This document shows, one piece after another, positions 7,545 to 64,000 of a DNA stretch of 64,000 nucleotides. Location: positions 206,663 through 270,662 of the forward strand of contig JAPJBO010000230.1 of assembly GCA_030068145.1 (NCBI GenBank), written 5' to 3'. Position 1 is the first letter of the stretch, and each line of letters opens with the position of its first letter. The translations under genes and the position numbers were made by a program. The stretch comes from Diplonema papillatum. Its lineage: Eukaryota; Euglenozoa; Diplonemea; Diplonemida; Diplonemidae. Under the pieces are notes generated by a model. The model was not told where the DNA came from. It made no database searches and was given only the letters and a program-made list of their open reading frames with translations.

Positions 7545-8228
7545 ATTTGCTGGCGTCGGTGGTTCTGATTCCTTTGTCTTTTTCTCTTTCAAGTGTGTTG
7601 CGACCGGTGCGAGAAGAGCGGCTGTGCACACCTACGTATAGCTGACTGGAGCGCCAACCTCGGGTCCTGCGCCTGAGTTGGCGCCGACCAATGAGCTGCC
7701 GAACCTGACGGGTGCGCCAGGAGTTTGGAACAGCTAATTGAGCCAAAGAGCTTGCCACACACCGCTTCAGGTATGACGCCTGCGCAAAGACACATCAGCG
7801 GTTGCGACCCGTCGAACCCCCTGTTTAGCTAGCACCGCAAGATAACTACACTTTGTGGTAACCTCCAAACAAGCTAGTTTCCTCGACCGGTAAAGACCAG
7901 CGCATATCTCCATGAACAGGCAAAGCGGGAAGCGAACGGTAGGCAAAATTTGGTGTCGTTTCTTTCTTCGTCTCTCTTTATTTTCTACTCAACGCATGTG
8001 CCTTCGGTTCGTTTTCTTAATTACTGGGCATTGCGTGCGTCAGTGTGGAGGCAAACTGGGGCATGTGGAAAGGAACGGTGTCGCAACTCTTGGTCGGAGC
8101 CATAAAGATAGTGCAGCTGAATGAAGAAGGCGTCCGTTTACTCTATCGGTGGTAAGCTGGTTGATTGTTTTTCACTGTTTTTTTTTTTTTGTGTTTCCGA
8201 CGATCCATTTTTTTTTTTTTTTTTTTTT
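7545..8228. other. 5' flank of polygalacturonase copy 3
   Basis: No gene recognised. It holds T-runs near 8179-8190 and 8208-8229. Between them lies a short fragment (gtgtttccgacgatcc, about 8190) that matches the start of repeat family C at 32.3 and 37.0 kb. Confidence 0.45.
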
Positions 8229-23207: not shown

Positions 23208-23599
23208 CGATGCCTGAGTACCCCCAAGAACGCCTCGATGCCTGAGTACCCCCAACAACGCCTCGATGCCTGAGTACCCCCAACAACGCCTCGATGCCTG
23301 AGTACCCCCAACAACGCCTCGATGCCTGAGTACCCCCAACAACGCCTCGATGCCTGAGTACCCCCAACAACGCCTCGATGCCTGAGTACCCCCAAGAACG
23401 CCTCGATGCCTGAGTACCCCCAACAACGCCTCGATGCCTGAGTACCCCCAACAACGCCTCGATGCCTGAGTACCCCCAACAACGCCTCGATGCCTGAGTA
23501 CCCCCAACAACGCCTCGATGCCTGAGTACCCCCAAGAACGCCTCGATGCCTGAGTACCCCCAAGAACGCCTCGATGCCTGAGTACCCCCAAGAACGCCT
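23208..23599. repeat. Minisatellite, 14 x 28 bp
   Basis: A perfectly regular array of the unit tcgatgcctgagtaccccca plus agaacgcc or acaacgcc (28 bp). 392 bp equals exactly 14 units. The only variation is g/c at one position, giving an agaacg or acaacg type that clusters at both ends and the middle. It has no spacers, so it is not CRISPR. The minus strand is open in all three frames, which generates spurious ORFs. Confidence 0.95.
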
Positions 23600-23757: not shown

Positions 23758-24541
23758 CCGAGAGAAGCGGAAGAACTCTCCGAAACGCGCGACACTCGGT
23801 ATTAAACTTGCTGCCAAACACACCGCAAGGTGTGGTCGACGAAAGCTCACGTCTCCGGTATCGAAACCCGGGCGTCGGAGTCAGCAACGGCTATCGCGAC
23901 GTCTGCCGTGTTGGGGTGCGGGTGCGGGTGGATGAGTGGCGGCATCGGCGGATCCGAGAGAAGCGGAATAACTGTCCGAAACGCGCGACACTCGGTATTA
24001 AACTTGCTGCCAAACACACCGCAAGGTGTGGTCGACGAAAGCTCACGTCTCCGGTATCGAAACCCGGGCGTCGGAGTCAGCAACGGCTATCGCGACGTCT
24101 GCCGTGTTGGGGTGCGGGTGCGGGTGGATGAGTGGCGGCATCGGCGGATCCGAGAGAAGCGGAAGAACTCTCCGAAACGCGCGACACTCGGTATTAAACT
24201 TGCTGCCAAACACACCGCAAGGTGTGGTCGACGAAAGCTCACGTCTCCGGTATCGAAACCCGGGCGTCGGAGTCAGCAACGGCTATCGCGACGTCTGCCG
24301 CGATGGGGTGCGGGTGCGGGTGGATGAGTGGCGGCATCGGCGGATCCGAGAGAAGCGGAAGAACTCTCCGAAACGCGCGACACTCGGTATTAAACTTGCT
24401 GCCAAACACACCGCAAGGTGTGGTCGACGAAAGCTCACGTCTCCGGTATCGAAACCCGGGCGTCGGAGTCAGCAACGGCTATCGCGACGTCTGCCGTGTT
24501 GGGGTGCGGGTGCGGGTGGATGAGTGGCGGCATCGGCGGAT
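23758..24541. repeat. Satellite, four 196-bp units
   Basis: The word ccgagag recurs at 23758, 23954, 24150 and 24346, exactly 196 bp apart, and 4 x 196 = 784 bp. Units differ by only a few bases (for example gtgttgggg versus gcgatgggg). Each unit carries a short inverted repeat (caccgcaaggtgtg) and, on the minus strand, GGAGACGTGAGC. The right end runs into the candidate exon listed next. Confidence 0.95.
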
Positions 24542-24741
24542 CCTCGAGAGGGAAGTCGAAGGATGGGAACCGGACGCTGGCTACGCGGAGAGGGTTCGCA
24601 CGCCGCAGGGACACGACCGACGTTCTTTGGTCCTGGACGTTGTATCCAGACGCAAGGGACGAGCGCCTGCGGTCGTTCTCTTCTTCGACGTCGGGCACGT
24701 ACGCGAAAGACCCAGACAGCGCTGTCATCATTTTCGTCGGC
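24435..24741 (-). CDS. Candidate terminal exon, unknown protein, whose 3' part lies in the satellite
   Basis: A strong acceptor-like site, TTTCTTACAG, ends at 24742. The frame that follows (PTKMMTALSGSFAYVPDVEEEN ... FPSFDFPLEDPP) uses mostly G/C-ending codons. It then enters the first 196-bp unit and stops at TGA 24435 after ...ARVSIPET. Alternatively it could splice at the GTGAGC overlapping that stop. Upstream exons are not identified; it might be the C-terminal tail of the gene to the right. No domain is recognised. Confidence 0.35.
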
Positions 24742-27550: not shown

Positions 27551-27776
27551 CAAGAATACTCGAGGGGCTGCCTTGTGTCTACTTCGAAAGAGGTCAGAGG
27601 GGGAGACATAATACAACTAGAAAGTGGGTATTTTGTGTTGAAACACTTACGCCCGCCACTGAACCCAGATTCACCTGTGTTTCGTGTGGGCTACAGCACA
27701 TTTACCTCCTTTGATATTTTGCCGCTGGCAGCCTCCTCAAGCATTTCCTACAAGCAGGTGCTATGCAAAAAAAAGT
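27551..27776 (+). repeat. Family A SINE-like repeat, copy A6 (full length)
   Basis: Spans tactcgaggggctgcc to caggtgctatgcaaaaaaaa. It lies in the intron immediately after the K+ channel exon, with its A-run only 20 bp from the exon end and antisense to the gene. Confidence 0.85.
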
Positions 27777-27795
27777 AGAACCACGAAGCACACAC

Positions 27796-29769
27796 CTGAA
27801 ACGTGCTGCTCGCGCTATCCTTGATCTGCTGCGCCCGCAGGACCTCTTGGCTCCGCTCGTTGAACTTGCGGATCAGGTACTTGAACCCTAACCGCTTCAC
27901 GGACGCGACGGAAAACCGCGGGGCCGGTTTGGGGGGAGGGGCGGACAGCTTTTTGGCGGTGCCGTTGCCGTACGACGTGATGATCACCGAGTGGTACGTC
28001 GCTGACGCCTCGACCAGGAAGTGCGAGCAGACGGTGCCGATGGGTAACTCGTACTTGGTCTGCGGTCCGCCGAGGGCCGCCATCGAGCAGATGTTCGCGT
28101 CGACGAGCGTCTTCTGCAGCTCGCTTCGGAACGCCGTCAGCTGCTGCCCAACCTCTCGTCGGCAGTCTTCTATTGTAGGCGCCTCGTCCGGCGGCTCCAC
28201 TTCCTTCCCGAAGGCCCGCTGAACGAGTTCTGCCTGCCGTTTCGCCTTCGCCCGGTGCTCGGCCACCGCTTGGTTGAAGTTGTTGCCGATCAATATGACC
28301 GGGAAGGACGACACCAAAATGCTGCACAGCATCGTGACCGCAGCGACGCACCGGCCGAGGGTGCTGATCGGGGTCTCGTTTCCGTACCCGACCGTCGTCA
28401 GCGTCACGAGGCACCACCAGAAGGCGGAAGGGATGCTTTGGAACGGCGCGATCTGTGCGGTGTCGCCGATCAACCACTGGTCCGCGTCTTTGTCGAAGCG
28501 CATGTCGCTCTGCTCGGCGAGGAACATCGCGGAGGAGAACATCAGGAGGCAGATGATGATCAGGAAGAGGAGCAGCGACAGCGCGTCGACCGATCTCGCC
28601 ATCGCAATGGCCACCAGCTGCAGGTTCGTCGAGTACTTCGACAGCTTCAGGACCCGGAACACGCGGATCAACCGAATCACACGGAGGACGACAAGAGACC
28701 CTGCGCCACCCTCATCCACCGCCAACGCGACGTACCACGGGATGATGGACAGCAGATCGATCCAGTTCAGCGGGTCCTTCGAAAACTTCCGGAGGTGTTT
28801 CACGGTGTACAAGCGGAGGCAGAACTCGAGGGTGAAGATCCAGATGCAGCAGGTTTCGATCCGGGCGAGCGACGATGACTCTTCCTCGTAGAACTGCGGC
28901 AGCGACTCGATGCAGAAGCAGGTCACGGAGACGATGATGACCAGGAAGATGCCGATCGAGATCGCCTGCTGCCCCCGTATCGCGCGCGCGGACCACGCCG
29001 GCATCCCCGGGTCGAGCAACGCGTACACCTTCTCCTTCCACGTCGACGGCAGCCGGTGCAGCTCCAGCTCGTCGGCCATGCGAACGCGCTTCGCCGGGGC
29101 CAGCGACGGGGAAGACCGCTCCGCCACACTTTCAGCCGTCGCGTCCGCGGTCCCCGCGGGGACCGCACCGGGGAGCAGCGCCGAGCGGAGCGGCTTTCCC
29201 TCCGACCGTCCCAGGGAGCTGTCCGACTGCAACAGCTCGGCTTCGGCGCGGGGAGACGGCGGGGGGCCGCCAGGCCACTGCTGCTGCTGCTTTTTTTTGC
29301 TCGAATGCGCCGTCTTTCGGCAGCAGGTTCCAGACGGGCTGCGGGGGGCCGGGAGGCTCCCGTCGGACGCGGCCGACCGGTCGGTTTCCCCGCGCCCGCA
29401 GTGATTGCAGGCGGAGTCGCCGTCACACGACTCGGCGCACGCTCCGTTCACCTCGGGGCGGTCCGCAGACGCGACGGACGCGTTGTCCGCTTCGAAGACG
29501 ATGTTCCCCCGGCGCTGCGTGAGGGCGCCGGCGTCGAAGCTCGCCTTGTTGGTCAGCATCGGGACGATGAGCCGTGTGCTGCACAGGTTCGCGAACTCAG
29601 CGCTTTCGTCGAAGGTCCCCCCCGAGGTCATGAAAGTGCACGCTTGCCCCGACTTCGCACCCGCCGCACTCGCGTTGCTGTTCGTCGGGCTGTCGGCCCT
29701 CAAAAGCGTCGGCGGGAGGCATTCGGCGTTCTCTTCCGCCCCGTCGCCTTCATGCTCGCCGAGGGCCAT
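27796..29769 (-). CDS. Voltage-gated potassium channel (Kv-type), large first exon
   Basis: Forms the pore of a depolarisation-activated K+ channel in a membrane; four subunits would assemble. The ATG at 29769 opens a 658-codon exon with an acidic/Ser-rich ~255-residue N-terminus. Then come S1 (about 268-289), S2 (303-322), S3 (335-351) and an S4 sensor with arginines every third residue (R363, R366, R369, R372). S5 (396-417), a pore loop with selectivity filter TTVGYG (458-463) and S6 (474-497) follow. S6 contains FPVIL in place of the usual PVP hinge. A cytoplasmic tail follows to STFQ. The exon ends at CAG|GTGTGT (27796/27795), so C-terminal exons lie to the left. No T1 domain is recognised. 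An upstream exon cannot be excluded. Confidence 0.9.
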
Positions 29770-47838: not shown

Positions 47839-49394
47839 CGCATTATTACTAAGCAAAACAGGCGGCACTGGCTACACATGCCATTCGGCACGCGAGATTT
47901 GCCGCACTGGTGTTGCTTTCTTGCCATGATCCAAGGGGTAATCAGTCCCACCTCTCTCATGGTCAGATTGTCGCGGGAATGTGGGCGAAAGGTACTTCTT
48001 TTTTTTCGTGCGCTCCATGCATTGGCAGCATTGCCATTGCCAATATTGTATGGCAGACTGCTTCTTGTGGTCGGAAAGTTGGTATCTTAAGTGAGAGGAT
48101 GGATTCCGAGTGAGCGTTGGTGACGTCCGCGGGACACTCTTCTTCCTTGGGCACACGAGTTCTTGTCTCCAGATTCGAAAGACAGCAGCCTTGAGTATTC
48201 CCTGCGAGTGGGTACAGAGAAATTCGCACATTTTTTTGGCTAGCAGTATAAAAAAAAGCGTTTTTCCCCGGGGAGGGGGGAGCGGACGAAGCGCATTGGG
48301 TGATTCATGCAAGAGCGAGAGCGGTTATGGGGTAGAGCAGTCCTGTATGCACAGGATGGGTTTAGTCGACTGATCATAATCTTCGAAGGTTAGCGTACCA
48401 AAAAGCGCATCACTAGGTGCCGCCCTGTACGGCTTTCGACTTCACTAACAATGAAACGAAATGCCTAAAAAGACGTGGGCAGCTTGGTCTTTGCGTAATC
48501 AGAATCATGACCTGAAATCGGAAACAAGTTAAAAAAAGAGCAAACGGAAAGTCGACCACAGCGCCTTGCCGTTCTTCGATAATATGGACTCCGGTGCATG
48601 AATCAAACCCTCGAAATATACGCATTCAAGAGTGTCCAAGGTGGCATTCTTCCGCCGTGGGGGAGGGTGAAAGAAAAGGTAGATATTTTCCAGCGCAAGG
48701 GGGAGGGAAAGAGTACAATCGTAACACAGGGGCGTGGGGTGGTATTTTCAACAGCCAGATGAAGTGGGGTAATCGTATGCGCACGGTGAACTGAAGTCAG
48801 AAGCTGGAGTTCGACTAGCGCGTGAGAAGTTTACGCGCGGGGCATGGGAGAAACACGTCTTTCATTCCGTCTCCTGTGGCTGACCGTATGGACTGGCAAG
48901 AGGCAAGCAGCGGACTACGAGTGCATGAGCGCTGTACGCACACATCTGCATTGATAGATAAGCCATTCCGACGTAGTGTGAAAAAACTTCGTCCACACAA
49001 AACAAATAACTCATTCATAAAGGACGCACCTTGCACAGCCAGGGTCGAAAACAACCCGTCTGGGTTCTGACACAGCATGTTGTTTGGACTGGAAACGGAG
49101 CCTCCGACTCCCCACATACAGTCCCGTTTGGTCGCCATTTCTCGGTGCCGTTGGGTGTTTTTCTTTTTTTTTTTTTGCTAGATTAAAGATCTGCATTTCT
49201 TCCCGCTCGGGAGAAAAGGGTAAGCTGAAAGCTTTTTTTTCATTTTGTTTTATTTATTTTTTGCTGAATGCCAGGCAGGGTGCCGATGCTAGGTTTCGGA
49301 GAACGTGTCTGGCGCTCACTTTTTTCGCTGCTCCTCGTATTTGTATAGACTGTTTTTTTGGTTTGTTTTTTCTTGCATTTTTTTTTTTTTTTTT

Positions 49395-49445
49395 TCGAGT
49401 GAAAGTTAGCTTGAACACCGGGGTATTGGAGCCTCCGGGTTTCTG
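49395..49445 (+). repeat. Family H repeat, one of several copies
   Basis: The words gagtgaaagttNNcttga, ccggggNNtt and ctccgggt recur with variation at about 38583-38630, 46107-46160, 37641-37680 and 24770-24820, and reversed at 32010-32060. They are usually next to a homopolymer run. Confidence 0.5.
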
Positions 49446-51022
49446 CCGGATTAAGGGGACACACGAGCAGGCTGTCTGGGAACCATATTCCGTTTGCGTC
49501 TCTGATGGACGTGTACAGTGTACCTTCTGCTATCTTGTTTTTTGTTTCGATTGCTGTTTTTTTTTTTTTTTTTTTTTTCGAACACCTTTCTGAAATAACA
49601 GCGCACTCGGTAGGAGCCTGTGCACCCGCCAACACGCGGGGTCGTGAAGTACCGAAAAGGAGGCAGAAGAAAAAGAAGTGAACCACGTGCGCCTTGCGCC
49701 GACGCAAGGGAGCAACTGCTCGCCCGTTTGTCATTTTCATTCTGCTCTGCCAGTGAGTGTGGATGCAAGCTTCGCACAATTTACTGTTGTCGGATTGCTT
49801 GGCGCGTGAACGAACACTTGTGTGTTGGTCTGAGGCGATTCGGTGAGCGGTTTAGGAACACGATTTGAAGGTAGACATTTTGGGATGGTCTGGAATCCAC
49901 TGCTGGTGTGCTGCTGCCGGAAAGAAATCCGAGTTTAACCCCTTACGGACGGAGGACAAATATTCATTGCCAAAAAAAGCCCGACCCCCGAGCTGGAAGT
50001 TCGGACACTGCGTCTCCAGAGTAAACACACGGCAAAAAGGACCAAGTGTTCGTGTTGCTGTGAACTGGCACTCCGTGGTAGCAGAGGGTCCACCACTAGG
50101 TGATAAGGAGGCTCATCCTAGGGTCGTAAGTGGCCTGGATATTATTATTATTGGGTGGATATAGGGCGATAAGAGGATACGGCCGTCATAAAAATTCTTG
50201 GATTCGCCCAAAGTTCCTCCAGAAGGCTTCTGCGCCCTCTGGGCAACCCCCCTTCCCCTCCGTCTGTAAGAGGTTAATGTTTAAGGGGGCAGCAGGTTCT
50301 GTTTTTGACTGTATTTTGTGTTACCGTCGATCCCGAGGATTGACTTGGGGGGGGGGGGGTCGTTGTATAATGGTTTAGCTTGAAGGGTGTTGGAAAGGTT
50401 GAAAAAGGTTTTGGGGGTCACCGTCGGTTTGTGTTTTTATTTTTTTCTGTATATTTTTTTTGGGGGGTAATTATTTTTTCGGGGGTTCGCGTAACCCTTC
50501 TTTTCCGGAAGATAACGTTATCTTTTCTTTTCTCTCTGGCGCTCTTTTTCTCTCTATCTCTCTCTTTGGCTAGCAAAGCGACTATTGCGACCGACACCAC
50601 GACCACACCCGTAATGAATGTGATCAAGGGCCCCCCACGTTCTACATGTTGAGCAGGGGTTGCCATGTAGCCCGTACCGGTCTAAGCCTTCATTGCAGCT
50701 TCCATAAGCACCCCCGTTGGGACGGGTCCGACGGTCCGTTAGTCATCAGCGACATCGGGCGGGAAAAAGTAAATAAAAAGAAAGGGGAAAAATGGGGGTG
50801 TGGGTGGATAAGCTCGTGGTAGGTTGTTCGGAAATAAGTACAACCTCAAACTACGCCTAGCACAGGGCCAGGCGGCATATACGTGCCTTCATCCTCTCAT
50901 GTTAGTGTGCGTTCACTCGTACAGACACTTCGAGTTTTTCCCGTTAGTCAGGGTAAACGGGTGCGGAGTGAAATATAGACCAGCCAGCAATCAAGAATCC
51001 GATGAGGCTCAAACGACGCGGA

Positions 51023-54000
51023 TCAGAATCTCACACCCGCGAGGTGGCAACGTCTCTCATGCGCGCGGAGTCCCCTCAGACCTTGGAACGTCTGGCCATC
51101 CTTCGTGCATTCGACGGAGCAGTGTTGACATCGCAGCACCGGGGAACCTGTTAACTGCTGTTCAAACAACTGACCATGCGGTGTCAGACATTGGGAGTCC
51201 GGCAAGGGCGGGCAGGGTGGCGAATTACCAAAGGGGCAGAAGGAGTCAGGTGATCCTTCCGACTGCCGGCTCATCAAATTACCGGCTGAACCTGGGGGTG
51301 CAGGCAAGTCGGGTAGCCGATCCTGAGTGGGAAGCACCATGGAGGGTGACGGGGCACGGACAGTCATGTCGTGGGCATTCCGGGGGATCCGGACAAAGGC
51401 CGCGAGGTAAACGTCACCCCACGGAATGTCGTCGACAGAGGTGACGTGCAGGTCGTCGAAGAGGATCCACCCCGTGTCTTGCGCAACGTACGTGACGTAG
51501 TGCCCGCTAGCCGTATCCTCCCCCATGTGCACCACGACGGCCGCGAGGCGTAGCAGATGGTCCGGCGGTCCGAAGAAGGGGGGCAGTTTCACGTCATTCT
51601 GGCGCCTGGCACCGTTTCTCGTGTAGATGCCAAACTGCATCAGAACACATTCAGCTGTCAGACGGAGATCCATGCTTTCAACCACCGTACCTACAGCCTT
51701 GCAGTCGCATACTCTCTCCGGATTCACAAACCCGTGCACGTGGAGAGAGTCTTCCAGCTTCCTTCCGCAAGGAATTTGCAAACATTGCATTACCTGACTG
51801 CTGGAAGAAGTGCGTCCACATGCACTGCATCGTACTGAGCTGGTCCAGCCGTTCTCCAAGCATGTTACGAAGAGTTGGTAGCCCGGGCAGGGGGTCCCCG
51901 TTTCGTCCGGACCCAGCGTCGCACTAGTCGCGCTGAGTATCGCTACCAGAGCTTCGTGCGCATCGTGCTGCCGTGCATCGCAGAAGTTTGCGAACATGCT
52001 CAGGATGGCTTGGACACCCATTCTCCGACAATCCCGGCTACGCTGGTCACCACTGTCGCGAGAGCTTGACAGCATGGCAAAGTAAGCCAGGAAGTCCCCG
52101 AGAAATCCACGGCAGTTGGGGAGGTCCTGCGCAAGGCTCCAGTACATCTCTCTGATCGGCCCAACCCGTAGCAGGAGCTGCAGCACCGCACCAAAGAAGC
52201 ACGTGTTCCCCAGATTCGGGAGGCCGGCGGGGCCAAACAGCGTCGGATCATGCCTCACGGAAGGCGGGTGTGTACAAACGTCTGATCGGTAGCACGTGGA
52301 TGGAGGGGCAACTGTTAGAACCGGTTTGTGGACATTCGAGCGGCGTCGCTTTGAAGCCCGTTGTTCGTCCTCTTCAGCCTTTCGCTTGTGGCCTTTCCGC
52401 GTGGACTCACGGGGGGCGGTCGTGTCAGCCTGTCGGGTCGGTGCTTCGGTGGGCGGTGATCGGGGGGCGTCATCTTCAGCTTCCGGGACAGGTTGGGGGC
52501 GGCCATTGTATTTCACGAAGGGTCTTTCAGCCAGAAGGCGCTCGATCGCAAGGTCCATCGCGGCCGGCTCTGGCAGTGATAGAGTGCGTTCCACCTCGTG
52601 AATGAGCCAGAAGAAGTGCCTCCGCACCTTCCCGCAATGCTCGCCAAATTTGGCCTCTGGGTATGTGTCCAGGAGCCATTTGCGGAATCCACTCTTCAAA
52701 ACGCTTTTCCGGTAACCACGCCGCATGAGTTTCAAGACCGTGTTGTTCATTTCGGTCTTGAAATCATATATGTTGTTGGCGATCCTACCGTTGCGAACGA
52801 GGGCCCCAATGAGGATGCTCGAACCGAAGTTTGACGGGGCCGTAGACAGGACTGACGTGTACGCGAGGGGGCGGTACGGGTAGGCTTTCGCCTTGTCCAA
52901 GACCGACAGTCGCATGTATCGCCTTCCAGACGCGCCGGAGACCTCATGTCGTATCCGTATGCCAAGGAAAGTCGCATCCCCTACGCATGCATTCGTCTGC
53001 TTGTACCCCATGCTGTAGATGGACTCGGGAGGGGGTTTCGTCCCGAAACAGAGCAGGTCATCTATAAAACGGCGCGTCATGCTGAGGAGTGTAGCCCGCC
53101 GGATGTCCCTTTCAGCCAGGAGTCTCATCATGTACCTCTTCTCCTTTGCGTAGCAGAAGAGATTGGCAATGTCTGGGGAGGCGTTAGCGCCCATCGGGAT
53201 GCCCAATATTTGCCGCATGAGGATGCCGTTCACCAGTACGTACGTGTTCGCCAGGCAGAAAGCGAGGAGGGCCTTGAGGTCGTGTGCAGAATATGCTGCC
53301 TGCTGTGAGCTCAGATCCGTCAACAGCATGAACGCAAAACAACGTTTCTTCTTCTGCGGCCCATGTTGGCTCTTCGGTCGTACTAGGACCAGTTCATCAA
53401 CCCGAACGCCGAGCCGTTCGGCCTCCGCTGCAAAGGCTTCGTCGATGGTACCAGCGATTTCCTCCAGCAGTTCCTCGAGTCCCAGCTGGTCGTACATGGT
53501 CGTGAAATCCCATGTACCCGCGACCAGGCCCGAGAGCTCGTCAACATGCGTCTTCAGAAAGAAGGCGGTGTCGTCACTGGACTCCGTGATCCAGAAGAAT
53601 CTAAACCCGGTCGCGTTGAATCGGTCGTTGTCCTCCCTCCGTAGGATCTCCATGACTGATTTCAACAGACCCGTTAGATCCAGCTGTGCATCCGTCGTCG
53701 ATGAAAATGTTGCATCGGGGCGGCGTGTTTCGCGTTCAGGAAAAGTCTCCCCCGGGCCCACAGTGTTTTTGCGGGAGACCCCGGCGATGTACCGCATGGT
53801 TATCACCTCCTTGTGTAGTTTCAAGGTGCCATAAAGGTAGGGGAGGGTGTTCGTGGGGCTCAGCCCTTTTTGCTCCAGGTACGTCTTGTGATCTGCTACG
53901 ACTTCTTCCGGTGTCTTCTCGCTCGGGGCGTAGTTCACGCTGTGGTTAACCTTCGTGTACAGATCCTGGTTGTAGAATCTTCTACACACGAACCCGAAGT

Positions 54001-55522
54001 CGTGAGAACTCTTGTCGACCGGGAGAATTACGAGGTCCTTGTGCAGTTCTCGCAGGCGTCGACGCGATGTGGTTGTCACCTCCGGTTCGGCACCAATACG
54101 CGTCACGCCGACGGTCGACATTATCTTCTCCCGCAGCAGTCTGGCGAAACTAGGCGGGGAGTCATTAAAGTACCCCTCGACGAACAAAGCCACCGCCCTA
54201 TCCACTTCAGTACAAATAGCTTCGTCGCCGCCATCCGGGCGGAACTTGCGACCTTTGTCGAAGAGCGTAACTAGTTCGCTGCAGGTGTCGAGGAGGTGTG
54301 CTTGCCCACACGCATGGCCTTGAATGTGGTATCCTTGCAGCAGATACTTTTGACACGGGCAGTCTTCGGGCGGAGGGGCCGGCTCCGGGGTCGTCTGTCT
54401 TGAAACCTCTGTGAAGTTGGAAAGGAGGACCCCGAGAGGGGGGTTGAGTGACGTAGAGACTCTCGTGTTGATGAATTCCGTGGGGTCGGCGAGGAGAGCA
54501 CGGAGTTGGGCATCATGGCGGAAGATAGCGGCAAGTTTGCGCTCGTCCAGCAGCTTGCTGACCTGTTGGATGCAGAACCACGGGGTTCGTGCCGCACTTT
54601 TCTTCTTTTTCGCGAGGTGGTTTATCTCACCAAGCCGTGCAGTGAGCAGCTCGTCCAGGATCCCCACCTTCGGATGCTGCAGGTGTTCGATCATGAACCG
54701 CCGAACCCACGTCCGAACCCTGTACACCCGGCTCTTCATCCACGGGTTCACGTCATACTCCCGCAGTGCGTCCTCCTCAAGTCCGAAGAGGTGCTGCAAC
54801 TGCCTACGGATGCCGAAGAATCTACCCCGTCCCTGGTTGATCCGTATCTCTTCGCCATCCACGTGAACCCACGGCTCCCCACGCTCGCGTGAAGCTCCTT
54901 GGGCGTCCCGTTCGTTGCCCGGTGCCTTTGTGAACGATGGTGCAGTGCGGGGCTTTTTCCTCCGTCTGTTCAAATCGCTGGCTGTCCTCACCGTGTTGAA
55001 CATCGGCTGCAGCATCGCGATGAACGCCATCTCTATCGGCTCCGACACCCTGTCGAACGAACTCCCGTCGGAGTAAAACGCACCAGGGATGTCGTAGAGC
55101 ACGAAAGCGTACGGCGGGGAAGGGAGGTTCTGTAAGTGACGCTTGAACTGGTCCTGTTTGCTGTTCCTGCCAGACCAGTGTTTGGCGACCCTTTCCTGCA
55201 TCGTCTTGCCTGTCTTGCCGATATATAACAGGTTAGCATGCGAGTCCACGAGTCCATAGATGAGACCCGAAGCCTTGTAGTTGCTCGGGTTCTCCGGCTG
55301 CTGGAGCTTGAGCGTCGCGTATGTGTGTGCAAGCTTCCTCCCGTATCTTCTCAGGAACCGGCTCGTGAATTCCACGCCTTGCTCCTTCCATTTCGACCAG
55401 TCGATCTGCGTCGTCTTTTCCGTCTTCGTACGAACGCAGTCGGTTTGGAAGAAGGGTGCGAGGAATGGTTTCGCAAACTCCGGGCGCCGCCGCATATCCG
55501 CGTCGGCAGGCGGTACACGCAT
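51023..55522 (-). CDS. Penelope-like element polyprotein: GIY-YIG endonuclease, reverse transcriptase, ubiquitin-specific protease, zinc finger (copy 1)
   Basis: Single ORF of 1,499 residues from the first ATG; the frame is open a further 83 codons upstream to 55771 without an ATG. Domain order: GIY-YIG nuclease about 85-179 (IYGL, YIGKT, R111, E164); RT about 490-900 with PVDK (501-504), GTLKLHK, WDFTTMYD (D672), GIPMGANASPDIANL (774-788) and FIDD (D821, D822). A basic bipartite NLS-like linker (1042-1062) follows. The USP domain spans about 1098-1380, with Cys box LPNLGNTCF (C1108), QHDAHE (1185-1190), finger cysteines (1232, 1235, 1272, 1274), GHYVTYV (H1341) and Asp1357. A C-terminal C2H2-like finger (C1465, C1468, H1488, H1493) resembles R2-type fingers. 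N-terminal GIY-YIG is the order known from the Naiad/Chlamys Penelope clades; the fused USP is the novelty. All catalytic residues look intact. Confidence 0.92.
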   Translation of the reverse strand: MRVPPADADMRRRPEFAKPFLAPFFQTDCVRTKTEKTTQIDWSKWKEQGVEFTSRFLRRYGRKLAHTYATLKLQQPENPSNYKASGLIYGLVDSHANLLYIGKTGKTMQERVAKHWSGRNSKQDQFKRHLQNLPSPPYAFVLYDIPGAFYSDGSSFDRVSEPIEMAFIAMLQPMFNTVRTASDLNRRRKKPRTAPSFTKAPGNERDAQGASRERGEPWVHVDGEEIRINQGRGRFFGIRRQLQHLFGLEEDALREYDVNPWMKSRVYRVRTWVRRFMIEHLQHPKVGILDELLTARLGEINHLAKKKKSAARTPWFCIQQVSKLLDERKLAAIFRHDAQLRALLADPTEFINTRVSTSLNPPLGVLLSNFTEVSRQTTPEPAPPPEDCPCQKYLLQGYHIQGHACGQAHLLDTCSELVTLFDKGRKFRPDGGDEAICTEVDRAVALFVEGYFNDSPPSFARLLREKIMSTVGVTRIGAEPEVTTTSRRRLRELHKDLVILPVDKSSHDFGFVCRRFYNQDLYTKVNHSVNYAPSEKTPEEVVADHKTYLEQKGLSPTNTLPYLYGTLKLHKEVITMRYIAGVSRKNTVGPGETFPERETRRPDATFSSTTDAQLDLTGLLKSVMEILRREDNDRFNATGFRFFWITESSDDTAFFLKTHVDELSGLVAGTWDFTTMYDQLGLEELLEEIAGTIDEAFAAEAERLGVRVDELVLVRPKSQHGPQKKKRCFAFMLLTDLSSQQAAYSAHDLKALLAFCLANTYVLVNGILMRQILGIPMGANASPDIANLFCYAKEKRYMMRLLAERDIRRATLLSMTRRFIDDLLCFGTKPPPESIYSMGYKQTNACVGDATFLGIRIRHEVSGASGRRYMRLSVLDKAKAYPYRPLAYTSVLSTAPSNFGSSILIGALVRNGRIANNIYDFKTEMNNTVLKLMRRGYRKSVLKSGFRKWLLDTYPEAKFGEHCGKVRRHFFWLIHEVERTLSLPEPAAMDLAIERLLAERPFVKYNGRPQPVPEAEDDAPRSPPTEAPTRQADTTAPRESTRKGHKRKAEEDEQRASKRRRSNVHKPVLTVAPPSTCYRSDVCTHPPSVRHDPTLFGPAGLPNLGNTCFFGAVLQLLLRVGPIREMYWSLAQDLPNCRGFLGDFLAYFAMLSSSRDSGDQRSRDCRRMGVQAILSMFANFCDARQHDAHEALVAILSATSATLGPDETGTPCPGYQLFVTCLENGWTSSVRCSACGRTSSSSQVMQCLQIPCGRKLEDSLHVHGFVNPERVCDCKAVGTVVESMDLRLTAECVLMQFGIYTRNGARRQNDVKLPPFFGPPDHLLRLAAVVVHMGEDTASGHYVTYVAQDTGWILFDDLHVTSVDDIPWGDVYLAAFVRIPRNAHDMTVRAPSPSMVLPTQDRLPDLPAPPGSAGNLMSRQSEGSPDSFCPFGNSPPCPPLPDSQCLTPHGQLFEQQLTGSPVLRCQHCSVECTKDGQTFQGLRGLRAHERRCHLAGVRF

Positions 55523-56221
55523 CTTGACCCGTTCCGGTAGGACCTCGCGCGTTTGTGGACCGGGTCGTCGCAAAACCGGACACGCGGAACAGTCGGGGGG
55601 TTTTTTTTGGGGGGACGGTGGGTCGTCGTGGAGGAAGGCCAACGAGTCGGAGGGAAGATCTATGACGTAACGTAACGTAACGGAAGGGGTGATAGGGAGG
55701 GGCGGGCGGATGGGGCGGCTTGTTCGTCTGGACGGTCGGCGGTGCAATACACGGGGGGGTAGGGAATTCACGCTTCTAAACTACTGCTACTGGTTTTTTT
55801 GCCAGGCTCAGGGCCCGACGCGTCTTTTGTCGATTTTCTGGGGTTTCGGTTGTACAATGGAACAGGTCCCGATTGGTAGTGACGAGACCGTACGGGGGCA
55901 GGATGGAGTTCACCTAAACTCTGCCCGGTCTCGATGCCGTGGTTGGTGGTACAGCGGGGCGAAGTCGATTTGGGTGGACCGTCTCCCTACCTGTACCGGT
56001 TGCTTCCTTCTCGTCGGTTGTGTGCACAAGGCGGGTTTTTTTCGGGCTCTGTACGTCCCTCGCGTCAGAGCCCTCAGAAAGCGAGCGGGTTCTTTTTTTG
56101 AGAGGTCACCCCGCGGCGTTTGGGGTGACTGGGTGGGTACGGCCGCTCCGTCCACCTAGGCCCCGGAATGAACCGGGTTCCCCTGTCGTTGATGGGAGAA
56201 GGACACAACAAACGAAGCACT

Positions 56222-56900
56222 CACATTCCGTCCAGGGGAACAGTCTAAATCATCCGCCCTAAGTTTTTCCGCGATATCGTCGCGCATCGCGTCTTCGGCT
56301 CGTGTCCGTGGATGGGTCATTGGCTTCTGACGGAGCAGCGGACTGGGTACCGGGCGTAGTTGTAGAGGAGGTGATAGTGCAGGTAGTCGGCAGCGGCATG
56401 TAAACATGGGGACGTAGTGTAGGGGAGAGGGGGGCGGCGCGTTGCACTAATCTGTATGTCAGTCAGCAGGCAGCCGTGGCATCCAATATCAACGGGCAGC
56501 CCGGTTGGCGGTCTACTCGGCGATGCGCGTCGCAGGAGGTGGACCGCCATCCGGGGGCCGGTGTGTAGAGCGTAGCTCCGAATGGGCGTCGTCCGGCAAA
56601 GTGCAACGCCGAAGGTACATGGACCCTTGAACTTGAACTCACATCCCGTCCGGGAGAGCCGTCTTATGGTCTTCCGCGATAGCGTCGCGCTTCGTGTCTC
56701 CGGCTCGCGTCCGTGCGTGGGTCGCTGGCCTCAATGGAGCAACGGACTGTACAGGGAACAGGCGCCGCCGGGAGTAGAGGAGTAGAGGAGTCGAGTAAGT
56801 GCTACGGTAGATAGTCGGCAGCAGCATGTTGCGTTGAGTAGACCGGGCCACACCGTAGAGGAGAGAGGGTGCTGATGGGCACGTCAGATTGCAAGTGTTG
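56222..56900. repeat. Degenerate direct duplication in the region upstream of the element ORF
   Basis: 56222-56410 and 56640-56835 share ttccgcgata, cgtcgcgc, ggctcg(t/c)gtccgtg and gtcggcagc in the same order, about 416 bp apart, with many substitutions and indels. This could be an old pseudo-LTR-like or promoter duplication, or a satellite in the interval between the two element copies. Confidence 0.55.
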
Positions 56901-58260
56901 TGGCGGTCAGTAGTATCGTGAAACCCGGGACGGTGGCTCACTCAGCGGATAAGCATTTGACCATCTACCGGGAGTCGAGATGTAGGACGCAGTTTCGAAA
57001 GGGGGTGTGGGGGTGGACTGCTATGGTGTGTCAGGCGGTGTAGTAAGTTGTGTGGCGACAGGCCGTTGCGTCGGTATTGCACGGATGATGGTTGTTGTAC
57101 AGTTGGAAGGTCGCAGGCGGTTGCAAGCTCGTCTGTGTCGTAAGTACCAGTCGTCTGCCACGGGGGCAGGGGGTGTAGGAAGCAGACTCGAGCAGTGTGT
57201 TGGCAGTAACCCTCTGTCGGTGTGTCTGGTTGCGTGGTGGTGGAGAGTCGTACGTCCGCGGGTTGTTGTTCGCGCCGGTTGGCAGGCGTTTGTGACACTC
57301 AGCAGCGCATCGCAGCCCAGATAAGCGGTCCCTCCCGCGGAAACGCATCGCGGGTGTGGATCGCAAATCAGGGGTGTAGGTGTTGAACGCAGCCTCGGAC
57401 AGGGGGCGGCAGGGTGCAGGCGTAAGCAGTTTTGAACAGGGGGCGGCTTCGAGTGTTGTCCGGCGGTGTGTGTTAAATCGTCGATCGGCAAAGTGCAGGT
57501 AGAATTGTATGATGTAGTGAACACGCTGGGCACCCGCGCGGCGGCTTCTCGTTCCCTGGACGTCTATCGATACAGGCGAATGTAGAAAATGGGAGATCGG
57601 ACTCTCGCCGGGTAGGACTCGTCAATATTCTCAAAAGGTGGCGGGCTCGAGGGGCATCGTAGCATGAGGCGGTGTCGGAAACAAAATGTAAGGCAGTCTG
57701 CCGGTGATCGCTACACACTTCACGACAGGTGCCATCCATTTCATCACGATCCGCACTGGCCGAGGTAAGGGAGTTTGCGAGCTGGGTGGCAGTGGCCGGG
57801 AGGGGGACATCGACTGATGAACCGGCCTCGTCAGTGGGGGCAGGGAGGGTGGGGATACGGACGTTAAAGCCACGATGAGGACTTGAACTTTCCGGGGCAC
57901 ATGGTTCCCCTGAGCAGCATGTAAAACGCAGTGGTCCCAGGTCCAACCCACTACGAGCGCGAGCGTAACATCAGTGCAGGCGTCGTTTCGTAGCCGAGTC
58001 TTTTGGGTACCCCTTTCCAGGCGTCCCGTCACGTAACCAACGGTCGACCAAGGACCAGGGAATATTGTAAAAAGAAAAAGAAATTTATGAAGGCTCACCA
58101 ACTTCGGCCCTCGCGAAAGGGGCGGAGAAGGCCACAGAGGGGCAAGAGGAGGGCCCATGCGTGCTTCAAAGGCTGTCGCCTGAGCTTGTTGCATGGCGGT
58201 AACGCCAGCGTGTCGAGGGCAGCAGCTCGCTTGCGCGAAGTACCCTGCTGGAATGGGGGG
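56901..58260. other. GC-rich interval between element copy 1 ORF region and copy 2 3' end
   Basis: No gene supported. It holds further internal near-repeats (acagggggcggc near 57399 and gaacagggggcggc near 57433). Whether it is 5' sequence of copy 1 or unique spacer cannot be decided within the window. Confidence 0.4.
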
Positions 58261-61200
58261 TCGTTGTATAATGGTTTAGCTTGAAGGGTGTTGGAAAGGT
58301 TGAAAAAGGTTTTGGGGGTCACCGTCGGTTTGTGTTTTTATTTTTTTCTGTATATTTTTTTTGGGGGGTAATTATTTTTTCGGGGGTTCGCGTAACCCTT
58401 CTTTTCCGGAAGATAACGTTATCTTTTCTTTTCTCTCTGGCGCTCTTTTTCTCTCTATCTCTCTCTTTGGCTAGCAAAGCGACTATTGCGACCGACACCA
58501 CGACCACACCCGTAATGAATGTGATCAAGGGCCCCCCACGTTCTACATGTTGAGCAGGGGTTGCCATGTAGCCCGTACCGGTCTAAGCCTTCATTGCAGC
58601 TTCCATAAGCACCCCCGTTGGGACGGGTCCGACGGTCCGTTAGTCATCAGCGACATCGGGCGGGAAAAAGTAAATAAAAAGAAAGGGGAAAAATGGGGGT
58701 GTGGGTGGATAAGCTCGTGGTAGGTTGTTCGGAAATAAGTACAACCTCAAACTACGCCTAGCACAGGGCCAGGCGGCATATACGTGCCTTCATCCTCTCA
58801 TGTTAGTGTGCGTTCACTCGTACAGACACTTCGAGTTTTTCCCGTTAGTCAGGGTAAACGGGTGCGGAGTGAAATATAGACCAGCCAGCAATCAAGAATC
58901 CGATGAGGCTCAAACGACGCGGATCAGAATCTCACACCCGCGAGGTGGCAACGTCTCTCATGCGCGCGGAGTCCCCTCAGACCTTGGAACGTCTGGCCAT
59001 CCTTCGTGCATTCGACGGAGCAGTGTTGACATCGCAGCACCGGGGAACCTGTTAACTGCTGTTCAAACAACTGACCATGCGGTGTCAGACATTGGGAGTC
59101 CGGCAAGGGCGGGCAGGGTGGCGAATTACCAAAGGGGCAGAAGGAGTCAGGTGATCCTTCCGACTGCCGGCTCATCAAATTACCGGCTGAACCTGGGGGT
59201 GCAGGCAAGTCGGGTAGCCGATCCTGAGTGGGAAGCACCATGGAGGGTGACGGGGCACGGACAGTCATGTCGTGGGCATTCCGGGGGATCCGGACAAAGG
59301 CCGCGAGGTAAACGTCACCCCACGGAATGTCGTCGACAGAGGTGACGTGCAGGTCGTCGAAGAGGATCCACCCCGTGTCTTGCGCAACGTACGTGACGTA
59401 GTGCCCGCTAGCCGTATCCTCCCCCATGTGCACCACGACGGCCGCGAGGCGTAGCAGATGGTCCGGCGGTCCGAAGAAGGGGGGCAGTTTCACGTCATTC
59501 TGGCGCCTGGCACCGTTTCTCGTGTAGATGCCAAACTGCATCAGAACACATTCAGCTGTCAGACGGAGATCCATGCTTTCAACCACCGTACCTACAGCCT
59601 TGCAGTCGCATACTCTCTCCGGATTCACAAACCCGTGCACGTGGAGAGAGTCTTCCAGCTTCCTTCCGCAAGGAATTTGCAAACATTGCACTACCTGACT
59701 GCTGGAAGAAGTGCGTCCACATGCACTGCATCGTACTGAGCTGGTCCAGCCGTTCTCCAAGCATGTTACGAAGAGTTGGTAGCCCGGGCAGGGGGTCCCC
59801 GTTTCGTCCGGACCCAGCGTCGCACTAGTCGCGCTGAGTATCGCTACCAGAGCTTCGTGCGCATCGTGCTGCCGTGCATCGCAGAAGTTTGCGAACATGC
59901 TCAGGATGGCTTGGACACCCATTCTCCGACAATCCCGGCTACGCTGGTCACCACTGTCGCGAGAGCTTGACAGCATGGCAAAGTAAGCCAGGAAGTCCCC
60001 GAGAAATCCACGGCAGTTGGGGAGGTCCTGCGCAAGGCTCCAGTACATCTCTCTGATCGGCCCAACCCGTAGCAGGAGCTGCAGCACCGCACCAAAGAAG
60101 CACGTGTTCCCCAGATTCGGGAGGCCGGCGGGGCCAAACAGCGTCGGATCATGCCTCACGGAAGGCGGGTGTGTACAAACGTCTGATCGGTAGCACGTGG
60201 ATGGAGGGGCAACTGTTAGAACCGGTTTGTGGACATTCGAGCGGCGTCGCTTTGAAGCCCGTTGTTCGTCCTCTTCAGCCTTTCGCTTGTGGCCTTTCCG
60301 CGTGGACTCACGGGGGGCGGTCGTGTCAGCCTGTCGGGTCGGTGCTTCGGTGGGCGGTGATCGGGGGGCGTCATCTTCAGCTTCCGGGACAGGTTGGGGG
60401 CGGCCATTGTATTTCACGAAGGGTCTTTCAGCCAGAAGGCGCTCGATCGCAAGGTCCATCGCGGCCGGCTCTGGCAGTGATAGAGTGCGTTCCACCTCGT
60501 GAATGAGCCAGAAGAAGTGCCTCCGCACCTTCCCGCAATGCTCGCCAAATTTGGCCTCTGGGTATGTGTCCAGGAGCCATTTGCGGAATCCACTCTTCAA
60601 AACGCTTTTCCGGTAACCACGCCGCATGAGTTTCAAGACCGTGTTGTTCATTTCGGTCTTGAAATCATATATGTTGTTGGCGATCCTACCGTTGCGAACG
60701 AGGGCCCCAATGAGGATGCTCGAACCGAAGTTTGACGGGGCCGTAGACAGGACTGACGTGTACGCGAGGGGGCGGTACGGGTAGGCTTTCGCCTTGTCCA
60801 AGACCGACAGTCGCATGTATCGCCTTCCAGACGCGCCGGAGACCTCATGTCGTATCCGTATGCCAAGGAAAGTCGCATCCCCTACGCATGCATTCGTCTG
60901 CTTGTACCCCATGCTGTAGATGGACTCGGGAGGGGGTTTCGTCCCGAAACAGAGCAGGTCATCTATAAAACGGCGCGTCATGCTGAGGAGTGTAGCCCGC
61001 CGGATGTCCCTTTCAGCCAGGAGTCTCATCATGTACCTCTTCTCCTTTGCGTAGCAGAAGAGATTGGCAATGTCTGGGGAGGCGTTAGCGCCCATCGGGA
61101 TGCCCAATATTTGCCGCATGAGGATGCCGTTCACCAGTACGTACGTGTTCGCCAGGCAGAAAGCGAGGAGGGCCTTGAGGTCGTGTGCAGAATATGCTGC

Positions 61201-64000
61201 CTGCTGTGAGCTCAGATCCGTCAACAGCATGAACGCAAAACAACGTTTCTTCTTCTGCGGCCCATGTTGGCTCTTCGGTCGTACTAGGACCAGTTCATCA
61301 ACCCGAACGCCGAGCCGTTCGGCCTCCGCTGCAAAGGCTTCGTCGATGGTACCAGCGATTTCCTCCAGCAGTTCCTCGAGTCCCAGCTGGTCGTACATGG
61401 TCGTGAAATCCCATGTACCCGCGACCAGGCCCGAGAGCTCGTCAACATGCGTCTTCAGAAAGAAGGCGGTGTCGTCACTGGACTCCGTGATCCAGAAGAA
61501 TCTAAACCCGGTCGCGTTGAATCGGTCGTTGTCCTCCCTCCGTAGGATCTCCATGACTGATTTCAACAGACCCGTTAGATCCAGCTGTGCATCCGTCGTC
61601 GATGAAAATGTTGCATCGGGGCGGCGTGTTTCGCGTTCAGGAAAAGTCTCCCCCGGGCCCACAGTGTTTTTGCGGGAGACCCCGGCGATGTACCGCATGG
61701 TTATCACCTCCTTGTGTAGTTTCAAGGTGCCATAAAGGTAGGGGAGGGTGTTCGTGGGGCTCAGCCCTTTTTGCTCCAGGTACGTCTTGTGATCTGCTAC
61801 GACTTCTTCCGGTGTCTTCTCGCTCGGGGCGTAGTTCACGCTGTGGTTAACCTTCGTGTACAGATCCTGGTTGTAGAATCTTCTACACACGAACCCGAAG
61901 TCGTGAGAACTCTTGTCGACCGGGAGAATTACGAGGTCCTTGTGCAGTTCTCGCAGGCGTCGACGCGATGTGGTTGTCACCTCCGGTTCGGCACCAATAC
62001 GCGTCACGCCGACGGTCGACATTATCTTCTCCCGCAGCAGTCTGGCGAAACTAGGCGGGGAGTCATTAAAGTACCCCTCGACGAACAAAGCCACCGCCCT
62101 ATCCACTTCAGTACAAATAGCTTCGTCGCCGCCATCCGGGCGGAACTTGCGACCTTTGTCGAAGAGCGTAACTAGTTCGCTGCAGGTGTCGAGGAGGTGT
62201 GCTTGCCCACACGCATGGCCTTGAATGTGGTATCCTTGCAGCAGATACTTTTGACACGGGCAGTCTTCGGGCGGAGGGGCCGGCTCCGGGGTCGTCTGTC
62301 TTGAAACCTCTGTGAAGTTGGAAAGGAGGACCCCGAGAGGGGGGTTGAGTGACGTAGAGACTCTCGTGTTGATGAATTCCGTGGGGTCGGCGAGGAGAGC
62401 ACGGAGTTGGGCATCATGGCGGAAGATAGCGGCAAGTTTGCGCTCGTCCAGCAGCTTGCTGACCTGTTGGATGCAGAACCACGGGGTTCGTGCCGCACTT
62501 TTCTTCTTTTTCGCGAGGTGGTTTATCTCACCAAGCCGTGCAGTGAGCAGCTCGTCCAGGATCCCCACCTTCGGATGCTGCAGGTGTTCGATCATGAACC
62601 GCCGAACCCACGTCCGAACCCTGTACACCCGGCTCTTCATCCACGGGTTCACGTCATACTCCCGCAGTGCGTCCTCCTCAAGTCCGAAGAGGTGCTGCAA
62701 CTGCCTACGGATGCCGAAGAATCTACCCCGTCCCTGGTTGATCCGTATCTCTTCGCCATCCACGTGAACCCACGGCTCCCCACGCTCGCGTGAAGCTCCT
62801 TGGGCGTCCCGTTCGTTGCCCGGTGCCTTTGTGAACGATGGTGCAGTGCGGGGCTTTTTCCTTCGTCTGTTCAAATCGCTGGCTGTCCTCACCGTGTTGA
62901 ACATCGGCTGCAGCATCGCGATGAACGCCATCTCTATCGGCTCCGACACCCTGTCGAACGAACTCCCGTCGGAGTAAAACGCACCAGGGATGTCGTAGAG
63001 CACGAAAGCGTACGGCGGGGAAGGGAGGTTCTGTAAGTGACGCTTGAACTGGTCCTGTTTGCTGTTCCTGCCAGACCAGTGTTTGGCGACCCTTTCCTGC
63101 ATCGTCTTGCCTGTCTTGCCGATATATAACAGGTTAGCATGCGAGTCCACGAGTCCATAGATGAGACCCGAAGCCTTGTAGTTGCTCGGGTTCTCCGGCT
63201 GCTGGAGCTTGAGCGTCGCGTATGTGTGTGCAAGCTTCCTCCCGTATCTTCTCAGGAACCGGCTCGTGAATTCCACGCCTTGCTCCTTCCATTTCGACCA
63301 GTCGATCTGCGTCGTCTTTTCCGTCTTCGTACGAACGCAGTCGGTTTGGAAGAAGGGTGCGAGGAATGGTTTCGCAAACTCCGGGCGCCGCCGCATATCC
63401 GCGTCGGCAGGCGGTACACGCATCTTGACCCGTTCCGGTAGGACCTCGCGCGTTTGTGGACCGGGTCGTCGCAAAACCGGACACGCGGAACAGTCGGGGG
63501 GTTTTTTTTGGGGGGACGGTGGGTCGTCGTGGAGGAAGGCCAACGAGTCGGAGGGAAGATCTATGACGTAACGTAACGTAACGGAAGGGGTGATAGGGAG
63601 GGGCGGGCGGATGGGGCGGCTTGTTCGTCTGGACGGTCGGCGGTGCAATACACGGGGGGGTAGGGAATTCACGCTTCTAAACTACTGCTACTGGTTTTTT
63701 TGCCAGGCTCAGGGCCCGACGCGTCTTTTGTCGATTTTCTGGGGTTTCGGTTGTACAATGGAACAGGTCCCGATTGGTAGTGACGAGACCGTACGGGGGC
63801 AGGATGGAGTTCACCTAAACTCTGCCCGGTCTCGATGCCGTGGTTGGTGGTACAGCGGGGCGAAGTCGATTTGGGTGGACCGTCTCCCTACCTGTACCGG
63901 TTGCTTCCTTCTCGTCGGTTGTGTGCACAAGGCGGGTTTTTTTCGGGCTCTGTACGTCCCTCGCGTCAGAGCCCTCAGAAAGCGAGCGGGTTCTTTTTTT
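58261..64000 (-). mobile_element. Penelope-like retroelement, copy 2 (5' part beyond the window)
   Basis: Direct repeat of 50360-56099 at a constant offset of 7,901 bp. The 3' boundary again follows a G-run (six G, 58255-58260), while the sequence left of it differs completely from that left of copy 1. Near-identity implies a very recent insertion, tandem duplication, gene conversion or an assembly duplicate. Confidence 0.88.
58924..63423 (-). CDS. Penelope-like element polyprotein, copy 2
   Basis: The same 1,499-residue ORF as copy 1, start ATG 63423, with every domain and catalytic residue conserved. I noted two differences. One is a Met-to-Val change in the USP finger region (residue 1245, near 59691 versus 51790). 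The other is a silent change near 62863. Its intactness beside copy 1 means the array carries two potentially functional coding copies. The 83 upstream open codons are present here too, up to 63672. Confidence 0.92.
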   Translation of the reverse strand: MRVPPADADMRRRPEFAKPFLAPFFQTDCVRTKTEKTTQIDWSKWKEQGVEFTSRFLRRYGRKLAHTYATLKLQQPENPSNYKASGLIYGLVDSHANLLYIGKTGKTMQERVAKHWSGRNSKQDQFKRHLQNLPSPPYAFVLYDIPGAFYSDGSSFDRVSEPIEMAFIAMLQPMFNTVRTASDLNRRRKKPRTAPSFTKAPGNERDAQGASRERGEPWVHVDGEEIRINQGRGRFFGIRRQLQHLFGLEEDALREYDVNPWMKSRVYRVRTWVRRFMIEHLQHPKVGILDELLTARLGEINHLAKKKKSAARTPWFCIQQVSKLLDERKLAAIFRHDAQLRALLADPTEFINTRVSTSLNPPLGVLLSNFTEVSRQTTPEPAPPPEDCPCQKYLLQGYHIQGHACGQAHLLDTCSELVTLFDKGRKFRPDGGDEAICTEVDRAVALFVEGYFNDSPPSFARLLREKIMSTVGVTRIGAEPEVTTTSRRRLRELHKDLVILPVDKSSHDFGFVCRRFYNQDLYTKVNHSVNYAPSEKTPEEVVADHKTYLEQKGLSPTNTLPYLYGTLKLHKEVITMRYIAGVSRKNTVGPGETFPERETRRPDATFSSTTDAQLDLTGLLKSVMEILRREDNDRFNATGFRFFWITESSDDTAFFLKTHVDELSGLVAGTWDFTTMYDQLGLEELLEEIAGTIDEAFAAEAERLGVRVDELVLVRPKSQHGPQKKKRCFAFMLLTDLSSQQAAYSAHDLKALLAFCLANTYVLVNGILMRQILGIPMGANASPDIANLFCYAKEKRYMMRLLAERDIRRATLLSMTRRFIDDLLCFGTKPPPESIYSMGYKQTNACVGDATFLGIRIRHEVSGASGRRYMRLSVLDKAKAYPYRPLAYTSVLSTAPSNFGSSILIGALVRNGRIANNIYDFKTEMNNTVLKLMRRGYRKSVLKSGFRKWLLDTYPEAKFGEHCGKVRRHFFWLIHEVERTLSLPEPAAMDLAIERLLAERPFVKYNGRPQPVPEAEDDAPRSPPTEAPTRQADTTAPRESTRKGHKRKAEEDEQRASKRRRSNVHKPVLTVAPPSTCYRSDVCTHPPSVRHDPTLFGPAGLPNLGNTCFFGAVLQLLLRVGPIREMYWSLAQDLPNCRGFLGDFLAYFAMLSSSRDSGDQRSRDCRRMGVQAILSMFANFCDARQHDAHEALVAILSATSATLGPDETGTPCPGYQLFVTCLENGWTSSVRCSACGRTSSSSQVVQCLQIPCGRKLEDSLHVHGFVNPERVCDCKAVGTVVESMDLRLTAECVLMQFGIYTRNGARRQNDVKLPPFFGPPDHLLRLAAVVVHMGEDTASGHYVTYVAQDTGWILFDDLHVTSVDDIPWGDVYLAAFVRIPRNAHDMTVRAPSPSMVLPTQDRLPDLPAPPGSAGNLMSRQSEGSPDSFCPFGNSPPCPPLPDSQCLTPHGQLFEQQLTGSPVLRCQHCSVECTKDGQTFQGLRGLRAHERRCHLAGVRF

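Follow-up and report, generated by a model that had tools for sequence, protein, structure and literature searches.

The genome of Diplonema papillatum harbors a young, probably recently active multi-copy retrotransposon, and its protein carries, behind a GIY-YIG nuclease and a reverse transcriptase (RT), a domain that we infer to be an apparently active ubiquitin-specific protease (USP). On sequence features the element fits the N-terminal-endonuclease type of Penelope-like elements. For the full reading, in which such an element is recently active and its USP deubiquitinates its own RT, and hence its RNP, sparing it from the proteasome, we see about an even chance.

The window, i.e. the whole stretch of 64,000 nt of D. 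papillatum DNA analysed here, contains a frame (51023-55771, reverse strand) that is open without interruption. Translation from the ATG at 55522, a start that subfamilies A (the window element), B, and C have in common, gives a protein of 1499 aa; upstream of this ATG, the frame remains open for 77-93 codons in all three, but the sequence diverges. A CCGTTACGTT-like string is common to these otherwise diverged leaders and lies at about 55670-55690 in the window. The protein consists, in order, of the GIY-YIG nuclease, a CxC linker, the RT, a basic linker, the USP, and a zinc finger (Table 1), and the first-pass annotation, which had read nuclease, Penelope-type RT, and USP in one frame at 51023-55522, is thereby borne out. 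The complete set of USP catalytic boxes that it described is also present in order, namely GNTCF (1105), QHDAHE (1185), CSACG (1232), CDC (1272), GHYVTYV (1340), and FDD (1355), and a C-terminal CxxC...HxxxxCH finger, absent from its list, follows them. Its domain assignments were upheld by Pfam for UCH (E 1.3e-20, profile 2-240 of 254) and, exactly at the curated cut-off of 22.6 bits, for GIY-YIG, but not for the RT, as no Pfam RVT family matches the window protein. In a phmmer search of the PDB with the same protein, the best match is USP36 (E 1.6e-6).

Table 1. Features of the element in the window (all positions are window positions; aa, residues of the 1499-aa protein).
Feature	Position	Strand	Remarks
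Tandem unit, 7901 bp	50354..58254	(-)	copy 2 (58255-64000) cut by contig end
Copy 1 3' end (..ACAACGA) and target C-run	50347..50360	(-)	
Copy 2 3' end, run of six C, joined to copy 1 5' part	58255..58261	(-)	
ORF copy 1, subfamily A, 1499 aa	51023..55522	(-)	stop codon included
ORF copy 2, same length as copy 1	58924..63423	(-)	end is 55522 shifted by the 7901 period
GIY-YIG nuclease, aa 86-129	55136..55267	(-)	Pfam stretch, 22.6 bits
CxC motif (CPC), aa 388-390	54353..54361	(-)	one linker CxC in 9/9 families
RT, aa about 481-1005	52508..54082	(-)	DFTTMYD 672, GIPMGANASP 774, FIDDLL 819; limits approximate
Basic linker, NLS-like, aa 1042-1061	52340..52399	(-)	sequence only
USP (UCH) domain, aa 1100-1365	51428..52225	(-)	Pfam and PDB profile
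Predicted catalytic Cys1108	52199..52201	(-)	conservation among USP families
Predicted catalytic His1341	51500..51502	(-)	conservation among USP families
Predicted third catalytic residue Asp1356 (N in family D)	51455..51457	(-)	conservation
C-terminal CxxC...H....CH finger, aa 1465-1493	51044..51130	(-)	also B, C, D (two), H, I; not E, F, G

The window holds the element twice, head to tail, in copies that are 99.965% identical over 5746 bp (50354-56099 and 58255-64000). A search of the genome (271 Mb in 2910 contigs; copy counts are lower bounds, with only the best candidates scored) with the window protein gave at least 32 scored matches. At least 14 of these are full-length and 100% identical, the two window copies included; one is full-length at 98%, three come close to full length (97-100%), six belong to subfamily C (85-86%), and eight are shorter or split. 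Internal stops are absent from 30 of these 32 A/C-type copies. Subfamily B is 67% identical to A over the protein, and with B as the query at least 31 matches were scored, of which 14 are full-length at 100%, four are C copies, and 30 have no internal stop. A genome search for the UCH family found at least 149 scored places; as counted from the listing, 112 match verified A and B copies in their end-points and score bands, and the other 37 resemble host USPs or fragments. As the copies sit on many contigs, the USP extends beyond a single locus, and a single-locus chimera or an assembly accident is ruled out. Two of the three observations that were to count against the first-pass reading, lack of a significant UCH match and a USP at this locus only, are therefore contradicted by the data.

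The ends of the copies are equally characteristic. In the sense of the element, the 3' end reads ..ACAACGA and is followed by a run of C. This end string was located in nine of 12 A-type 3' regions, and in all nine it is followed by five or more C before the flanking sequences diverge; it was not found in the remaining three (L010, L058, L059). Poly-C also stands behind the 3' end in B (two copies), C (two copies), and F (one copy); family G has just two C at its one candidate 3' end, and what was fetched of D, E, H, and I shows no poly-C 3' end. The copies have ragged 5' ends. A pseudo-LTR, in which the terminal 285-460 bp of the element's 3' side stand ahead of the 5' part, is carried by six of 10 fetched 5' regions, these six having been picked because the junction was already seen there; a seventh has about 16 bp of 3' end and the other three have none. 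Three loci (L034, L035, L036) have one flank in common, in which a B-type 3' end immediately precedes the C-run; these may be one event or related copies. The spacing of GIY-YIG matches reveals further tandem arrays on contigs C510, C2819, and C61, and at L010 an inverted 5' piece lies about 210 bp behind the 3' end. For target-site duplications, 11 pairs were prepared, three were dropped with the 3' end string missing, and eight were compared: one case is clear (contig C1408, 84 bp with one mismatch), three have flank scores slightly above shuffles (L003, L006, L007; 13-14 versus 11-12), two of them (L006, L007) via G- or C-runs, and the remaining four are not above shuffles. No hammerhead ribozyme was found in 49000-64000 at E up to 10, and the 10-base end of the spliced leader was found neither in the window nor in the loci fetched for comparison. 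Genome-wide, a diplonemid spliced-leader 23-mer has 604 exact matches and its reversed control has 0.

Pseudo-LTRs, ragged 5' ends, poly-C targets, and head-to-tail arrays together fit N-terminal-endonuclease Penelope-like elements. The RT itself was recognised by motif order and architecture, and its motifs are conserved in the nine families described below. RVT_1 gave sub-threshold matches in six of the nine (best E 0.013), a PDB search with the RT profile gave no RT match up to E 10, and hhalign comparison with a candidate telomerase and with LINE RTs gave scores no better than reversed controls. A candidate host telomerase was seen at C5:228580-228969 (L061, L074), in a frame of 1632 aa with a Telomerase_RBD match of 21.9 bits, which is below cut-off (E 0.03).

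Several features of the window and genome lie outside the element. A polygalacturonase (GH28) frame occupies 1-1005 on the reverse strand, within window positions 1-7631, and the GH28 stretch is repeated at 4253-5310 (92%) and near 6489-6979 (78-79%); pectin-degrading enzymes are reported for D. papillatum in the genome paper (PMC10161547). A eukaryotic LSU rRNA piece at 9927-10343 on the reverse strand (Rfam RF02543, model 1494-1884, 55.3 bits) fits the scattered 28S pieces that the same paper reports along with 13 rDNA clusters (PMC10161547). A universal 18S 23-mer has no exact match in the genome, though rDNA is reported in that paper (PMC10161547). In addition, the window encodes a voltage-gated potassium channel of 673 aa (27748-29769, reverse strand; Ion_trans E 4.6e-40; best PDB match Kv2.1), and self-comparison shows short tandem arrays at 18679-19070, 23207-23599, and 23758-24555, with offsets of 44, 28, and 196 bp. 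A genome search for an LHC gene found none, and a photosynthetic host was rejected on that account.

A genome search for the GIY-YIG domain gave 150 places among the matches listed, many of them in long frames of other sizes. Representatives were chosen by frame length and score (D, L044; E, L045; F, L046; G, L051; H, L047; I, L048), and second copies of D (L052) and H (L050) as well as two more C-termini (L053, L054) were also read. UCH matches in Pfam were found for D (E 4.8e-14), E (3.6e-18), F (8.4e-16), and G (4.2e-18), and likewise for L052 (4.7e-14), L053 (2.2e-17), and L054 (3.5e-17). Other Penelope-like RTs with a C-terminal USP, for which the first-pass annotation had proposed a search, thus occur within this same genome, with seven USP families sampled. 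Families H and I have an OTU domain (PF02338) at the position held by the USP in A-G, above cut-off (E 1.9e-5 in H, 1.7e-5 in its second copy, and 1e-8 in I), with the profile matched in part (1-90 and 2-106 of 128) and with Cys boxes (GDGNC, GNGNC) and His boxes (WHFIP, VHYIP). A deubiquitinase-type C-terminal domain is therefore present in all nine sampled families, seven with USP and two with OTU; this count covers the sampled families, and other groups among the 150 places may differ.

Other parts of the architecture vary. Pfam places GIY-YIG N-terminal to the RT at or above cut-off in A, B, and D-I and below it in C (20.1 versus 22.6), and none of the nine families has a CCHH cluster in the nuclease, whose 110 aa include no more than one Cys. 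The finger after the protease is present in six of the nine families. The basic linker, which the first-pass annotation had placed exactly between RT and USP, occupies that place in A, B, and C; D, E, F, and G lack it, and H and I have a basic cluster at the RT end, some 60 aa ahead of their OTU Cys box. Family D (L049 with L044, contig C679) has long open N-terminal repeats with a DTY/RTY..P.PY pattern ahead of the nuclease. L050 (C815:75200-80300) is a 5'-truncated H copy; upstream, its frame runs on without a break into a coiled-coil-like region, possibly a fusion with a host frame.

A profile of the seven USPs matches 107 PDB sequences at E up to 0.001, the best being USP12 (2.2e-23). The predicted catalytic Cys and His and the four zinc Cys are invariant in all seven families, and the third catalytic acid is D in six and N in one (family D). 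Of 250 ungapped columns 19 are invariant, and these include seven of the eight catalytic and zinc columns (P 3.5e-8, for columns chosen after the alignment had been seen). Nei-Gojobori dN/dS between A and C is 0.21 for the USP, 0.056 for the RT, 0.35 for the linker, and 0.38 for the tail; the corresponding values for A-B (USP 0.12, RT 0.057) and for pairs of E, F, and G (USP 0.09-0.11, RT 0.06-0.08) are less firm than A-C because dS above 1 is saturated in more distant pairs. By these substitution rates the USP part is under purifying selection, which is weaker than that on the RT given 0.21 versus 0.056. Among 20 host UCH loci, the best match of the element USP has about 24% identity (E 2.5e-10), and recent capture of one of these host genes is unsupported.

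The core tree of nuclease and RT joins the nine families as (A,C),B, as F,(E,G), and as D with (H,I) at 92/93 on long branches. A second tree combines the seven USPs with host sequences, namely 15 of the 20 loci compared, five partial ones having been left out; here a branch with 83/93, recovered in 83% of 200 bootstrap trees, sets the element USPs apart. Congruence of RT and USP trees, which had been proposed as a check, holds for three deep groups; the order within E, F, and G differs, being F,(E,G) at 83/86 in the core versus G,(E,F) at 93/89 in the USP when trees of the seven USP families are compared, so exact agreement is rejected in detail. With host USPs added, the USP tree gives F,(E,G) at 95/46. 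The trees are compatible with one old gain of the USP and with exchange between USP and OTU, but they establish neither of these and no direction. Pattern scans of viral contigs and of prokaryote genomes, which mostly reach close relatives, found no relatives in either.

How might a deubiquitinase serve such an element? In the mechanism we propose, the GIY-YIG nuclease would nick poly-C tracts, the RT would copy the element RNA at the nick, and the USP would remove ubiquitin from the element's own RT/endonuclease, and hence from the RNP, so that the proteasome would not degrade it. That USP and OTU, whose folds are unrelated, occupy the same site in one chain with the polymerase and have both been retained argues for ubiquitin removal as the likely selected activity, and the simplest substrate would be the element's own protein. 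The activity of the domain, ubiquitin as its substrate, the element's protein as the ubiquitinated target, and a need for the domain in transposition are all what we infer from sequence. A wider and more tentative idea, which we hold to be somewhat doubtful, is that a whole Penelope-like radiation in diplonemids depends on a deubiquitinase, with ubiquitin tagging of the RNP as a main host defence that USP and OTU would both answer.

Other roles for the domain deserve consideration. It might act at the target site, deubiquitinating histones H2A/H2B or repair factors such as PCNA and thereby opening chromatin or steering repair toward integration. The fusion in cis with endonuclease and RT, the basic linker of A-C, and the finger of six families would carry the protease to DNA, but E, F, and G have neither linker cluster nor finger and a sequence feature pointing to histones is absent, and we regard this role as unlikely, though a serious contender. 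That the domain, instead of protecting its own protein, inactivates in trans some factor of host defence or signalling is quite improbable: viral deubiquitinases do act so (PMC5967125), and two unrelated enzymes at one place suggest pressure from the host, but such a role does not need the fusion in cis. Viral cysteine proteases also process polyproteins (PMC5967125), and the domain could be a processing protease or else an inactive ubiquitin-binding scaffold. Both are very unlikely when the catalytic residues are kept in seven of seven USP families and a simple motif scan finds no L-x-G-G in A to G (LSGG occurs once in H and LFGG once in I), which leaves self-cleavage after a ubiquitin-like tail without a clear site. 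Finally, a captured host USP riding along with no function for the element, as the other, host-like UCH genes of the genome might suggest, is barely credible given its retention in seven families, dN/dS well below 1, and the distance to the best host locus. Protection of the element's own RT and RNP is the reading that we prefer.

The occurrence of two unrelated deubiquitinase folds at one polyprotein position amounts to natural evidence for a limit set by ubiquitin on these elements, and restraint of retrotransposons by the ubiquitin-proteasome system becomes directly testable in a cultured protist. USP- or OTU-bearing Penelope-like elements are, provisionally, new: in the literature searched, which did not extend to the main paper on the clade (Craig et al. 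2021), there was no Penelope-like element with either domain and no such element in diplonemids. A deubiquitinase joined to a Penelope-like element does not appear in the available portions of PMC12477816, PMC6431247, PMC5718144, PMC12278014, PMC5967125, or PMC3482391, the last of which mentions Penelope-like elements for their nuclease fold only, and the word 'Penelope' is absent from the main text of the D. papillatum genome paper (PMC10161547). A brown alga is reported to contain Chlamys elements, described there as new to TSAR (PMC12477816).

Among known systems, the element agrees with C19 USPs such as USP12, USP36, and USP46 in its full-length profile match, catalytic boxes, and CxxC/CxC zinc finger, and differs from them in being fused to a retrotransposon RT and distant from the 20 host UCH loci. 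Chlamys and Naiad elements reportedly have GIY-YIG before the RT, a CxC linker, pseudo-LTRs, tandem and inverted insertions, a microsatellite or simple-repeat target, and no hammerhead ribozyme. The window element shares the first three of these features and its family the tandem and inverted insertions, the simple-repeat target, and the lack of a hammerhead. The nuclease of the Chlamys group is without a CCHH cluster, as is that of the window element. Penelope-like elements are further characterised by an RT of the branch that includes telomerase, and those of the N-terminal-endonuclease type by an insertion-in-fingers domain in it. In contrast to Chlamys and Naiad, the diplonemid elements end in a USP or OTU domain, and such a C-terminal domain is not known as a described part of Chlamys or Naiad elements. 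The functional parallel, if our model is right, is the PRO protein of Turnip yellow mosaic virus (TYMV), an OTU deubiquitinase that is encoded together with the polymerase of the virus and stabilises it against the proteasome (PMC5967125). TYMV, however, is an RNA virus, and its PRO is an OTU rather than a USP, serves also as a polyprotein protease, and is no relative of the window protein. Mobile elements with ubiquitin-pathway domains have precedents in Helentrons, which carry an OTU-like protease, and in planarian Burro elements, which carry ubiquitination-related domains; unlike the window element, Helentrons are rolling-circle DNA transposons and Burro elements are Gypsy-like, and the available part of that source mentions no USP in them (PMC6431247).
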